DNA of 64,000 bases from Streptococcus hyointestinalis (GTDB lineage: Bacteria; Bacillota; Bacilli; Lactobacillales; Streptococcaceae): assembly GCF_900459405.1 (NCBI RefSeq), contig NZ_UHFN01000007.1, forward strand, positions 1,240,001 to 1,304,000, given 5' to 3'. Positions 17,513 through 24,614 of the stretch are shown here, piece after piece. The translations under genes were made by a program, and so were the position numbers. The notes beneath the pieces were generated by a model that was not told the DNA's origin, did no database searches, and worked only from the letters and a program-made list of their open reading frames with translations. How positions within the stretch are numbered: the stretch's first letter is position 1; the number at the start of each line of letters is the position of its first letter.

Positions 17513-17541
17513 TTGCATTTTTGAAAAGATAGCGCTATCAT
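17513..17541 (+). promoter_or_regulatory. apbE operon promoter
   Basis: TTGCAT (17513-17518), 17-base spacer, TATCAT (17536-17541). The same hexamer pair form, TTGCWT-N17-TATCAT, occurs at 23902-23930 before the distant flavinylation-motif gene. Confidence 0.7.
17524..17539. promoter_or_regulatory. Candidate operator in the apbE promoter
   Basis: AAAAGATAGCGCTATC contains the perfect 12-base palindrome GATAGCGCTATC, overlapping the -10 element, a position typical of repression. The near-identical AAAAGATAGTGCTATC is at 23846-23861. Confidence 0.5.
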
Positions 17542-17564: not shown

Positions 17565-18503
17565 GTGTATGCTAACCGCCGTCTCAAGATGATGGGAACG
17601 GTCATTGACATTGCTATTTATTCTCATCAGGCAGAACGTCAGATAGATGAGGTCATCGAGCAGCTGACTGTCCTTAAAAACCGCTTTAGTGCTAACGACG
17701 ATGACTCTGAACTGATGACTATCAATCACAGCGCAGGCATTTCAAGCATCTCAGTGCAGCCAGATTTGTATCACTTGATTGCTATTGGCAAGGAGCATAG
17801 TCTAGAGAAGCCCAGCAATCTCAACATCGCACTGGGTCCTGTCGTGCAGGCTTGGCGGATTGGCTTTAGCGACGCTAGAGTTCCTAGCGAAGATGAGATT
17901 ACTCAGGCGCTAGCGCTGTCTGACCCTAGAGACATCATCCTAGACGAGAAGGAGCACAGCGTTTTTCTCGCCAAAAAAGGCATGAAAATTGACCTCGGTG
18001 CTCTTGCCAAGGGCTATATAGCAGACGCTATCATGGCTACTCTTGCTAAGCAAGACGCAAGCTCTGCTATGATTAACCTCGGTGGTAACGTGCTGGTCTA
18101 TGGAGCCAATCCCAAGCGCCCAAGCGGTGAGTGGTTCATCGGTATCCAAGCGCCTAGTCACAAAAGAGGAGTGCATCTAGGTGTTCTCCCTATCACATCG
18201 GGGTCTGTGGTGACTTCTGGTATCTATGAGCGACATCTTAGCGTAAATGGCAAGGACTACCACCATATCTTTGACAAAAAGACAGGCTATCCTATCGAGA
18301 GTCCTCTCTCAAGTCTTACCATTGTGTCTGCTTTGTCGCTTGATTGTGAGATTTGGACGACGAGACTTTTTGGACTAGCGCTTGATGAGGTGCTTTTTGC
18401 CATTGAACAAACACCCCACATTGAGGGTATCTTAGTGACCAGGGAGGGACGTGTCATTCTCTCAAGTGGTCTTGAGAAGCGCTTCATCCCTTATCACTTT
18501 TAG
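17565..18503 (+). CDS. apbE: FAD:protein FMN transferase (cytosolic-type ApbE)
   Basis: 312 residues. ApbE transfers FMN from FAD to a Thr or Ser in target proteins through a phosphoester bond, with Mg2+. Motifs: N-terminal MMGTVIDIAI, the central KIDLGALAKGYIAD near residue 145, INLGGNVLVYG, and KDYHHIFDKKTGYP near 230. There is no signal peptide or lipobox, unlike exported ApbE, so it should act in the cytosol. Translation begins at GTG, seven bases after AAGGAGG. It is followed at 23 bases by an FMN reductase gene and then by a larger one whose C-terminal tail carries two candidate acceptor motifs. Confidence 0.93.
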   Translation: MYANRRLKMMGTVIDIAIYSHQAERQIDEVIEQLTVLKNRFSANDDDSELMTINHSAGISSISVQPDLYHLIAIGKEHSLEKPSNLNIALGPVVQAWRIGFSDARVPSEDEITQALALSDPRDIILDEKEHSVFLAKKGMKIDLGALAKGYIADAIMATLAKQDASSAMINLGGNVLVYGANPKRPSGEWFIGIQAPSHKRGVHLGVLPITSGSVVTSGIYERHLSVNGKDYHHIFDKKTGYPIESPLSSLTIVSALSLDCEIWTTRLFGLALDEVLFAIEQTPHIEGILVTREGRVILSSGLEKRFIPYHF

Positions 18504-18526
18504 GATTATAGAATTGAGGAAATGAT

Positions 18527-19129
18527 ATGAAACTTATCGGAATTGTCGGAACAAACTCGGCTAAGTCAACCAACCGCCAACTCTTAGAATACATGCAAAA
18601 GCACTTTGCAGATAAAGCTGAGATTGAGCTGGTTGAGATTAAGGACTTGCCTGTTTTTAACAAACCTGCCAATAAACAAGTCCCTGACATCGTGCTTGAA
18701 ATCGCAGGAAAAATCGAGCAAGCAGACGGTGTCATCATCGGCACACCCGAGTATGACCACTCTATCCCTGCCGTTTTGATGAATGCCCTTGCTTGGCTGT
18801 CTTACGGTATCTACCCACTGCTCAATAAACCAGTCATGATTACTGGAGCGTCCTTTGGAACGCTTGGCTCGTCTTGTGCCCAGCTGCAGCTGCGCCAGAT
18901 TCTCAACGCTCCTGAACTCAAGGCAAATGTCCTGCCAGATGAGTTCTTGCTCTCTCATTCTCTGCAAGCTTTTGACAAGGATGGTAACCTTCAAGATTTG
19001 GAAACTGTGCAAAAATTGGACGCTATCTTTGATGACTTCCGCCTCTTTGTCAAAATCGCAGGAAAACTCTCCAATGCGCAAGCGCTTTTGCGCCAAGAAG
19101 CTGAAAACTTTGATTGGGAAACATTATAA
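18527..19129 (+). CDS. NADPH-dependent FMN reductase family protein
   Basis: 200 residues of the flavodoxin-like FMN_red fold. MKLIGIVGTNSAKSTNRQLL gives the FMN phosphate loop, GVIIGTPEYDHSIPAVLMNALAWLS is the family's flavin-contacting motif (TPEYnhs), and MITGASFGTLGSSCAQLQLRQIL follows. It is a stand-alone domain with no flavinylation motif. It could supply reduced flavin or reduce quinone-like acceptors. Second gene of the apbE operon, 14 bases before the next, similar protein. Confidence 0.9.
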   Translation: MKLIGIVGTNSAKSTNRQLLEYMQKHFADKAEIELVEIKDLPVFNKPANKQVPDIVLEIAGKIEQADGVIIGTPEYDHSIPAVLMNALAWLSYGIYPLLNKPVMITGASFGTLGSSCAQLQLRQILNAPELKANVLPDEFLLSHSLQAFDKDGNLQDLETVQKLDAIFDDFRLFVKIAGKLSNAQALLRQEAENFDWETL

Positions 19130-19143
19130 AAAAGGAGAAGATC

Positions 19144-20379
19144 ATGAAATTTGTAGGTATCGTTGGATCAAATGCTGAGCAGTCATACAATCGCATGCTC
19201 TTAGAGTTTATTCGCAAGCAGTTCAAGCACAAATTTGAGCTTGAGGTTTTGGAAATCGCTGATGTTCCTATATTTAACCAAGACCAAAACTGGAAGGAAA
19301 GCTTTCAGTTGCGCCTATTGAACAATAAAATCACACGTGCAGACGGTGTCATCATCGCAACACCTGAGCACAATCACACCATCACCGCTGCGCTCAAGAG
19401 TGTCCTTGAGTGGCTGTCTTATGAGACTCATCCATTTGAAAATAAACCTGTTATGATTGTAGGCGCTTCTTATTATGACCAAGGAACCTCTCGTGCACAA
19501 GTCCACCTGCGCAAAATCCTTGACGCCCCTGGTGTCAACGCTTATACCCTTCCTGGCAATGAATTTCTCCTTGGAAAAACCAAAGAAGCCTTTGACAATG
19601 ACGGTAATATCATTAGCGAAGGCACGGTCGCCTTTCTTGGGACTTGCCTAGATAACTTTGTCAAGTATGTCGAGGTGGTCTCTAAACTGCAAAAGCCAAA
19701 ACCAATTGCACCAGAGGATTTGGACTGTAACCATCCTATCGCAACTACTGTGACAGAGGTTGACCCTGATGACCCAGAGTGGGTAGAAAAGGTAGCTGAG
19801 CTGACAGGTGCTGTCTCTGGTGACACTTATGTCAAGCTGGATTACGGTATCCTCACGGTTGATCAGATTAACATGTTTCTCAACTCTATGCCGTTTGAAT
19901 TGACCTATGCCGATGATAACAACCAGTTTTTATACTACAATAACGCTCACCAAGACCCAGACACCATGCTAGCCAAGCGTGTGCCGTCTCAATCAGGTAG
20001 TCGCCTCTCAACCGTTCACAATAGCCTGCCTGCTAACCGCATGAAAAATGTCGAGTGGGTTATCGGAACCCTGCGTAATGGCAATCAAGAATACGTGCGT
20101 ACCATTGTCCCTGGCTCACCAGCTGGTGTCATCAATACGCACAATTACCAAGCCATGTATTATCCAGACGGCTCTTACGCTGGTATCAATGAAATTGTCT
20201 TTAATTTCCAACCATGGCTAGACTGGTACTTAGAAACTACAGGACAGCGCTTGGTCGGTGGCTCAGGTCCATTTGCCCCTACTGCTGCAGCAAGTGACGC
20301 CACTTCTGGTGCTTCAGATAGCGGACACAGCGCAAGCGACACGCAAGCAGACGCTACATCTGGCGCCTCATCACACTAA
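19144..20379 (+). CDS. FMN reductase–PAS-like fusion with two C-terminal flavinylation motifs
   Basis: 411 residues, started at 19144 after AAGGAGAA. Domain 1 (about 1-185) is an FMN_red domain paralogous to the preceding protein (MKFVGIVGSNAEQSYNRML, then IIATPEHNHTITAALKSVLEWLS). Domain 2 (about 225-365) resembles the PAS domain seen with DUF438/PAS_10 proteins: MFLNSMPFELTYADDNNQFLYY ... NYQAMYYPDGSYAGINEIVF. The last 40 or so residues are Ser/Ala/Asp-rich and contain DATSGAS twice (residues 385-391 and 403-409), matching the ApbE acceptor pattern D-x-x-[ST]-G-A-[ST]. I infer a soluble reductase carrying covalent FMN on a flexible tail. The acceptor and physiological role are unknown. Confidence 0.85.
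   Translation: MKFVGIVGSNAEQSYNRMLLEFIRKQFKHKFELEVLEIADVPIFNQDQNWKESFQLRLLNNKITRADGVIIATPEHNHTITAALKSVLEWLSYETHPFENKPVMIVGASYYDQGTSRAQVHLRKILDAPGVNAYTLPGNEFLLGKTKEAFDNDGNIISEGTVAFLGTCLDNFVKYVEVVSKLQKPKPIAPEDLDCNHPIATTVTEVDPDDPEWVEKVAELTGAVSGDTYVKLDYGILTVDQINMFLNSMPFELTYADDNNQFLYYNNAHQDPDTMLAKRVPSQSGSRLSTVHNSLPANRMKNVEWVIGTLRNGNQEYVRTIVPGSPAGVINTHNYQAMYYPDGSYAGINEIVFNFQPWLDWYLETTGQRLVGGSGPFAPTAAASDATSGASDSGHSASDTQADATSGASSH
20296..20370 (+). other. Twin ApbE-acceptor (flavinylation) motifs
   Basis: Codons 20296-20316 and 20350-20370 each encode DATSGAS. The two DNA copies use different codons (gcc/act/tct/ggt versus gct/aca/tct/ggc), so the repeat looks conserved at protein level and is not a fresh DNA duplication. 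The final Ser of each copy would be the acceptor. Confidence 0.6.
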
Positions 20380-23936: not shown

Positions 23937-24614
23937 ATGAAAGCAAAAAATATTTTAGCGCTGGCAAAAAGCACAGCAGAGCGTACTTACTTTGAAGATA
24001 TGGTAGAGCCTTTCTCTGACCTTTTTACCATCAGCATTGCAGATAGCTATCAAGACAACCATAACTATGATGGACTATTTTGCTTTGAAAGACAAGAGCT
24101 TGGCGTGCCACAGCTGCTCTTTAGTTTTGAGGAAAAGAAAGACTATGTATTTACTGATCCGCACCCTTTTTCTGACACTCAAAAAACCATCACTCTCACC
24201 CAGCAATTGACATCCTTTTACCATTACTTGGAGACACATTTTCTTGATTATTTGCCTTACCGAGTGGCTTTTTACGATACTTCTGGTGCGGTTGCTTATG
24301 ACAATCACAAACCCAGCAATCCTTTTGAGCTCACAGACGACGCCACAGCGCTTGACGGTTGGATTAAAGACCAGCTAGACAGCACAGAAAAAGGGCAGTT
24401 GCACCTGCCCTTAGCTCAATCTGCCTTTTCTGCTATTCTCATGGACTCTTACTACAAGGTCACAAGTCCTAGTGGAGACAAGGGTTACGTGGAAATCGTC
24501 CAAGACATCAAGCCACTACTTGAAGCTTATCTAGCAGACTCTGCGCAAGCCTTGGTCGGTTGGTCAGATGTAACCTCTGGCGCATCCATAGCATCCGATG
24601 ACTTCGACCTATAA
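23937..24614 (+). CDS. PAS-like protein with a C-terminal flavinylation motif
   Basis: 225 residues without signal peptide or membrane segment. The second half resembles the PAS-like domain of the fusion protein encoded at 19144-20379: [19 protein letters not shown] aligns with its MPFELTYADDNNQFLYYNN, and [20 protein letters not shown] with its NYQAMYYPDGSYAGINEIVF. Like that protein it ends in an ApbE-type acceptor motif, here DVTSGAS (residues 211-217), eight residues before the C-terminus. I infer a small carrier of covalent FMN. The N-terminal 90 residues are not recognised. The last 88 bases are antisense to the end of kup. Probably co-regulated with apbE. Confidence 0.75.

Follow-up and report, generated by a model that had tools for sequence, protein, structure and literature searches.

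Two described systems lie close to a three-gene set of Streptococcus hyointestinalis that encodes the flavinyltransferase ApbE and two reductases of the FMN_red family, and that is considered here within a stretch of 64,000 nucleotides (contig NZ_UHFN01000007.1, positions 1,240,001–1,304,000, forward strand; hereafter the window, from whose first letter positions are counted). Huang et al. (2024) reported FMN_red proteins, mainly from Firmicutes, whose C-terminal region contains one or two motif-like sequences and whose genes lie beside apbE (PMC11334425). Two of them, WP_021723379.1 from Lactococcus lactis and WP_205872264.1 from L. taiwanensis, were flavinylated, and Ser or Thr at the site was needed; the results section of that paper describes co-expression of the cognate apbE in Escherichia coli, and its methods section the addition of Listeria ApbE to lysates. 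In the Lactococcus model, the predicted sites lie near conserved flavin-binding sites.

The second system is FRedA/FRedB of Lactobacillus johnsonii, an obligate heterodimer with two sites for flavin mononucleotide (FMN) that uses NADH and produces H2O2 (Valladares et al., 2015; PMC4500961). It takes free FMN as its substrate (Km 20 μM), binds FMN with a KD of about 2 μM, and is active in vitro without any ApbE. Loss of two FMN_red genes abolished H2O2 formation in L. johnsonii, as cited in that paper from Hertzberger (2014). The associated PAS protein, LjPAS, has counterparts fused to an FMN reductase in other lactic acid bacteria, including L. plantarum; Lp2732 and EF1227 are given in a figure legend. 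A literature search found no paper joining the ApbE-flavinylated FMN_red proteins with the H2O2-forming FMN_red/FMN_red/PAS reductase.

The operon and its tail motif

In the window, the three genes are co-directional, with gaps of 23 bp between apbE and the first FMN_red gene and of 14 bp between the latter and the gene for a 411-residue reductase. The original prediction had described a cytosolic ApbE followed by two FMN_red genes, the last coding for an FMN_red domain, a PAS-like domain, and a low-complexity tail with two DATSGAS motifs, and the analysis confirms this. The features are as follows (flavinylation motifs are also called tags).

17565–18503, + strand: apbE, for a cytosolic FMN transferase using flavin adenine dinucleotide (FAD:protein FMN transferase), 312 residues; PF02424, 245.1 bits versus a curated cut-off of 25.6
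18527–19129, + strand: FMN_red protein without a tag, a FRedA/FRedB-like partner subunit, 200 residues; PF03358, 2.6e-35
19144–20379, + strand: FMN_red-PAS_10 reductase with a twice-tagged C-terminal tail, 411 residues; Pfam
19144–19581, + strand: FMN_red domain of the 411-residue protein, residues 1–146; PF03358, 7.1e-36
19867–20208, + strand: PAS_10 domain of the 411-residue protein, residues 242–355; PF13596, 4.3e-23
20296–20316, + strand: putative flavinylation motif 1, DATSGAS, residues 385–391, predicted acceptor Ser391; motif scan and homologue conservation
20350–20370, + strand: putative flavinylation motif 2, DATSGAS, residues 403–409, predicted acceptor Ser409; motif scan and homologue conservation

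The proposal that the 411-residue reductase is a substrate of this ApbE, also made in the original prediction, is well supported at the level of sequence, because the motif is kept despite a changing linker, the two genes share an operon, the genome has no FMN_bind domain, and there is a Lactococcus precedent. Motifs were scored as canonical (D-x-x-[ST]-G-A-[ST]) or relaxed (D-x-x-[ST]-[GSTA]-A-[ST], in which Gly is replaced by Ser, Thr, or Ala). Two or more canonical motifs are expected by chance in the 38-residue tail with P = 7e-5 (200,000 shuffles), and the other 373 residues of the protein contain none. Among the homologues in the matches listed (120 of 1401), 103 have two canonical motifs, 12 have one, 4 have three, and 1 has none. 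A 24-row alignment showed D-A and A-S to be invariant at both motif sites, with linkers varying in length and letters. Exactly two canonical motifs were found in 72 of 80 named loci, nearly all from Streptococcus; the closest named relative encountered is S. hyointestinalis B19, with 98% identity in the best segment of the 411-residue protein. The motif was also followed in an order-level set, consisting of all 100 reductase matches from Lactobacillales genera outside Streptococcus, taken with their flanks. A total of 176 canonical motifs, with a maximum of 6 in one protein, were counted in these 100 tails, versus 0.4 expected from shuffling, a procedure that controls for composition and not for shared descent. 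At least one canonical motif is present in 77 of the tails, and a canonical or relaxed one in 97.

A profile search for FMN_bind (PF04205) found no match in the 411-residue protein and none across the whole genome. Scanning the genomic DNA with a loose motif pattern gave 29 matches versus 8 for a reversed control. Matches whose last codon could not encode Ser or Thr were set aside by eye and the rest were checked in frame, which left the 411-residue protein, a 225-residue protein encoded elsewhere in the window, a PurR-like protein, and a 50-residue stop-to-stop frame (locus L011). As potential ApbE substrates, the DTLTGAS of the PurR-like regulator (L003:1228–2139) was judged to be a chance match, and the short frame was judged non-coding.

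There is no room for a signal peptide in the ApbE, whose open frame spans 316 residues for a protein of 312, and it is the sole ApbE match in the genome. The closest solved sequence is 7esa, an FAD:protein FMN transferase (E 1.9e-65), which we take to be Listeria FmnB. The active-site residues of FmnB are Ser257, His273, and Arg262, with Asp301 in the catalytic triad (review; PMC12052999). When aligned to 7esa, Ser218, Arg223, and His234 of the window ApbE match the active-site Ser, Arg, and His; the offset of 20 between the 7esa chain and native FmnB numbering was derived in this analysis. Across 183 aligned ApbEs, which are related sequences, the Ser and Arg are kept in 182 (one gap) and the His in all.

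The distribution of the reductase was examined with profile A1 at E 1e-90 across 345 Lactobacillales genomes. It is present in 147 of them, from 44 of 79 genera, and ApbE is present in 310. The original prediction had suggested counting how often such proteins co-occur with apbE: ApbE accompanies the reductase in all 147 genomes, versus 163 of the 198 that lack it (Fisher 1.2e-9, relatedness ignored), and lies inside the fetched locus in 75 of the 100 order-level and 77 of the 80 named loci. It was not found in the named loci L246, L304, and L316. Since relatedness is ignored by the Fisher test and many genomes outside Streptococcus have two or more ApbEs, adjacency of apbE is the better evidence. 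The 1e-90 cut-off misses three genomes with triple-PAS proteins (G180, G414, and G450), all of which have ApbE. In a separate set of 147 Streptococcus genomes, the fusion occurs in 121, broken in some, and ApbE in 144; 12 genomes whose matches (1e-37 to 1e-70) were all to other FMN_red proteins are outside the count of 121. The three genomes without ApbE (G041, G053, and G055) have no fusion, no FMN_bind, and no 225-residue protein. Among the fetched loci, the ApbE of L190 is an 80-residue piece at a contig end, and L023 and L084 contain masked stretches.

Proposed mechanism and its alternatives

It is probable, in our judgment, that the three genes specify a soluble NADH:flavin reductase equipped with tethered FMN of its own, the tail flavin acting as substrate or carrier. 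ApbE would transfer the FMN moiety of FAD onto the final Ser of both DATSGAS motifs (Ser391 and Ser409), as the Lactococcus FMN_red precedent suggests. By analogy with FRedA/FRedB, the untagged FMN_red protein and the FMN_red-PAS subunit would form a heterodimer with two flavin pockets, in which NADH would reduce the bound flavin. Taking the place of free FMN, the tethered FMNs could then dip into the pockets or lie beside them, and may pass electrons to O2, giving superoxide or H2O2, or to another soluble acceptor. The PAS domain may position the tail or pace assembly.

Each part of this layout has a known counterpart. The FMN_red domain, the C-terminal motif-bearing region, and the co-localized apbE of the Huang et al. 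class are all found for the 411-residue protein, which differs from that class, as the paper describes it, in having a PAS_10 domain between reductase and tail; in PMC11334425, "pas" occurs only within "passed" and "pasteurianum." An unstructured extension near the flavin pocket is another feature of the class, and the AlphaFold model gives the tail a predicted local distance difference test score (pLDDT) below 50, but the PAS domain scores below 50 as well. Like FRedA/FRedB/LjPAS, the window has a pair of neighboring FMN_red genes together with a PAS module, here fused as in Lp2732 and EF1227. In contrast, the terms ApbE, covalent, and flavinyl are absent from the main text of PMC4500961, and the part of its strain table that was examined contains no ApbE. 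Some reductases of other streptococci combine FMN_red, FMN_bind, and FAD_binding_2 in a single chain (by Pfam in L078, by overlapping profile matches in the others), so that, judging from these sequences, a layout with FMN_red next to covalent FMN already exists. These proteins of ∼800–830 residues resemble the 411-residue protein in that FMN_red and a flavinylation site, DAVSGAS in L078, belong to one polypeptide; their site, however, lies inside FMN_bind beside the FAD domain, and the 411-residue protein has neither domain. A Klebsiella system likewise pairs a signal-peptide-free ApbE with a soluble target, although that target is a fumarate reductase (PMC12052999). The engineered Flavin-tag, a short terminal DxxxGA[TS] peptide, suffices for ApbE (PMC10722498), whereas the tag in the window is natural and repeated. 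A survey published in eLife in 2021 was restricted to clusters in which a signal peptide or lipidation site is present (PMC8238504), and cytosolic operons of the present type were left out by that filter.

Several observations weigh against the tethered-flavin reductase. A homologue without the motif in a genome that keeps apbE beside it was what the original prediction named as evidence against itself, and such cases occur. DD10 (L322), 1 of the 80 named loci, has apbE adjacent and a tail with DATASAS and DATSSAS but no canonical motif. Of the order-level tails, 23 of 100 lack a canonical motif (20 of these have a relaxed one), and of the 75 order-level loci with ApbE, 20 have none by the tail rule. 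Among these 20, 18 carry the relaxed form; L209, although scored as motif-less by the tail rule, has two canonical motifs elsewhere in its open reading frame; and L203 has Asn or His in place of Asp. Relaxed forms are possible ApbE substrates. In a studied enzyme, Gly→Ala lowers flavinylation to about half, Asp→Ala changes little, and Thr is a better acceptor than Ser (PMC12052999); this preference for Thr and the loss upon Gly→Ala would tell against Ser-ended and relaxed motifs. The AlphaFold model of the fusion, with a mean pLDDT of 53.8, describes well only the FMN_red domain, and the docking of the tail that we propose finds no support in it. The in vitro activity of FRedA/B without ApbE means that the tag is not required for it.

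The transferase itself also departs from the known active site. Glu262 of the window ApbE stands in place of the triad Asp, and Glu is found there in all 159 operon-type ApbEs (the window, 75 order-level, and 83 from Streptococcus), versus Asp in all 24 ApbEs taken from the loci with the highest-scoring ApbEs of Streptococcus. Of these 24 Asp-type proteins, 20 contain a simple lipobox pattern; among the operon-type reading frames, it is found in none of the 75 order-level ones and in 1 of the 83 from Streptococcus. Glu at this position looks like a marker of a cytosolic ApbE subclass. The exchange of Asp for Glu is conservative; assignment to ApbE rests on the profile, and activity of the operon-type enzymes is assumed from their conservation.

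The tags could instead serve only to retain FMN at FMN_red pockets that bind it weakly, each of the two tags serving one of the two pockets, with no separate carrier role. The weak binding of FMN by FRedA/B (KD about 2 μM, two sites; PMC4500961), the exactly two canonical motifs in 72 of 80 named loci, and the closeness of the predicted Lactococcus sites to conserved flavin-binding sites (PMC11334425) would all suit such a role. Proteins with up to 6 canonical motifs, or with 8–9 canonical or relaxed ones in the triple-PAS forms described below, exceed two pockets, however, and tagged PAS proteins without FMN_red exist, which makes retention alone an unlikely account. A sensory function is less probable still. 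Here the tethered flavin would dock in the PAS domain as a means of redox sensing, and the 411-residue protein would regulate the reductase assembly rather than carry electrons. A PAS_10 domain is indeed present, and preincubation of FRedB with LjPAS reduced the initial rate by about half in vitro, but LjPAS did not affect a heterodimer already formed (PMC4500961). A Pfam search of the 411-residue protein found no output domain and no DNA-binding domain, and PAS_10 occurs beside FMN_bind in two other chains (L390 and L372), where carriage of flavin is the usual role.

Least probable, and in our view hardly credible, is that the motifs are unmodified by-products of a low-complexity tail of Ala, Ser, Gly, and Asp. 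The tail is of low complexity, the PurR-like protein has a DTLTGAS judged to be there by chance, and some relatives with an adjacent ApbE have no canonical motif. Against this stand the shuffling results for the window (P 7e-5) and for the order-level tails (176 versus 0.4 motifs), the presence of ApbE in every reductase-bearing genome (147 of 147), and the 225-residue family, whose members are mostly 29%–45% identical yet nearly invariant around the motif.

PAS proteins with flavinylation motifs beyond the operon

A third motif in the window, DVTSGAS, lies in the 225-residue protein, which the original prediction had not linked to the operon. The gene lies ∼3.6 kb after the operon.

23937–24614, + strand: 225-residue protein, a PAS fold followed by a DVTSGAS tail, outside the operon and without a Pfam family; AlphaFold2 and Foldseek
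24567–24587, + strand: putative flavinylation motif DVTSGAS of the 225-residue protein, residues 211–217; motif scan and alignment

This protein is a candidate second substrate of ApbE. Its AlphaFold2 model (mean pLDDT 84.7) comprises an alpha/beta part, a PAS-like part, and a low-confidence tail, and the best Foldseek match is an S. mutans PAS structure (2qkp, E 4.7e-5). The model also resembles many other PAS structures, including LOV and NifL PAS domains, at weak E-values, and these matches are not counted as a sign of flavin binding. Relatives were found in 36 of 147 Streptococcus genomes. Among 33 aligned members, 12 of 13 invariant columns fall at residues 195–217 around the motif, and identity to the window protein is 29%–45% except for two near relatives at 87%–92%. 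The gene lies within ∼12 kb of an apbE in 14 of 19 genomes compared and at least 47 kb away in the other 5.

Tagged PAS proteins of other forms also occur in Lactobacillales. One genus (g9, 11 of 13 listed genomes) has stand-alone PAS proteins of ∼250 residues. Three canonical motifs are present in 8 of the genomes; L363 has two and L364 a single one, and in L361, whose tail looks out of frame, there are none. By size and layout, these appear to be counterparts of LjPAS (28 kDa); two or three flavinylation motifs are present in L354–L360, L363, and L365. The same genus has a second, shorter PAS-like protein of 178–207 residues that ends in DAESGAS (L366–L371 and L373). Other proteins, of ∼880–900 residues, combine FMN_red with three PAS_10 domains (by Pfam in L384, by three matches each in L385 and L386) and contain 8–9 canonical or relaxed motifs, with tags following the PAS modules.

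Three further chains were noted. L389:4291–5055 has an N terminus that is hydrophobic by eye, DVTSGAS, and PAS_10, and is perhaps a tagged PAS protein at the membrane. L390:4651–5892 is lipoprotein-like, with FMN_bind, DADSGAS, and PAS_10, and L372:1156–2496 has two FMN_bind domains and PAS_10; both of these chains hold extra DxxSGAS-type tags. The occurrence of PAS_10 beside FMN_bind in one chain ties this type of PAS domain to flavinylation independently of the reductase. Conversely, tagged FMN_red proteins without PAS are found in S. mutans and S. gallolyticus (P0134, P0136, and P0143), and 13 of 14 tagged PAS-less FMN_red proteins have a single canonical motif. Neighbors of such genes, an amylase-family and a Cas9-like gene (L077 and L079), give no functional clue; in L076 the neighbor is another FMN_red gene.

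These forms raise a tentative possibility, to which we give somewhat less than even weight: PAS_10 with a D-x-x-[ST]-G-A-[ST] tail may be a general flavin-carrier module of Lactobacillales, a flexible brush of 1–9 tags filled by the Glu-type cytosolic ApbE and shared by FMN reductases, PAS proteins that stand alone, and forms of membrane or lipoprotein type. LjPAS, which has been described as a sensor pacing the formation of H2O2 in L. johnsonii, would in that case carry electrons on several flavins, and its preparation in the absence of its ApbE would explain why this form escaped notice. Some findings weigh against so wide a module. The motif number of the stand-alone g9 proteins is uneven, down to none in L361. 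More distant PAS_10 relatives are tagless (L362/L376, L374, L375, and L377–L383), so PAS_10 alone does not predict a tag. In the 225-residue family, Pro replaces the motif Ala (DxxSGPS) in 13 of the 33 members that were aligned and, counted by locus, in 17 of 30 (e.g., L100–L103, L109, and L113–L119), and no published support for this variant was seen.

Regulation and biological implications

Two further elements flank the genes. The first, upstream of apbE, resembles a catabolite-responsive element (cre), and the CcpA consensus is TGWAANCGNTNWCA.

17527–17540, + strand: cre-like site AGATAGCGCTATCA, with 2 mismatches to the consensus

The second, 3′ of the stop codon of the 411-residue gene on direct reading, is an inverted repeat, AAAAAGGACT ... 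AGTCCTTTTT, which reads as a terminator. Of the 80 named loci, 72 were scored for cre-like sites and 8 were left unscored; the best upstream site has at most one mismatch in 69 of the 72, which are related loci with sites at varying positions, versus 6 of 360 single-base shuffles. We take SMU.1088–1090 to be the apbE, FMN_red, and FMN_red-PAS genes of S. mutans, a species with no locus among the 80 fetched. On glucose, these genes gave a log2(TW1/UA159) of 1.7, TW1 being a ccpA mutant, and SMU.1088 is listed as a RegPrecise CcpA target (PMC3610829). SMU_1090 is upregulated on aeration and heat and downregulated on vancomycin (PMC5656683). The upstream sites are in keeping with this effect of CcpA on the believed orthologues, and the operon is probably under carbon-catabolite control by CcpA.

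The original prediction had called the arrangement unfamiliar. It is more familiar than that, as flavinylated FMN_red proteins (PMC11334425) and the FMN_red/FMN_red/PAS reductase (PMC4500961) had both been published. What is added here is the PAS-bearing, multi-tag, cytosolic form, the recurrence of PAS domains with tags, and the Glu/Asp split among ApbEs. Most surprising to specialists may be the idea of LjPAS and its relatives as flavin carriers. The main role suggested for flavinylation is to prevent loss of flavin outside the cell (PMC11334425), and a repeated cytosolic tag fits badly with that view. The FMN_red/PAS set occurs widely, in 147 of 345 Lactobacillales genomes at E 1e-90, and H2O2 is the product of its relative in L. 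johnsonii. Should ApbE tether the flavin that is used physiologically, kinetic measurements with free FMN would concern the wrong substrate, and what the PAS protein does would have to be reconsidered.

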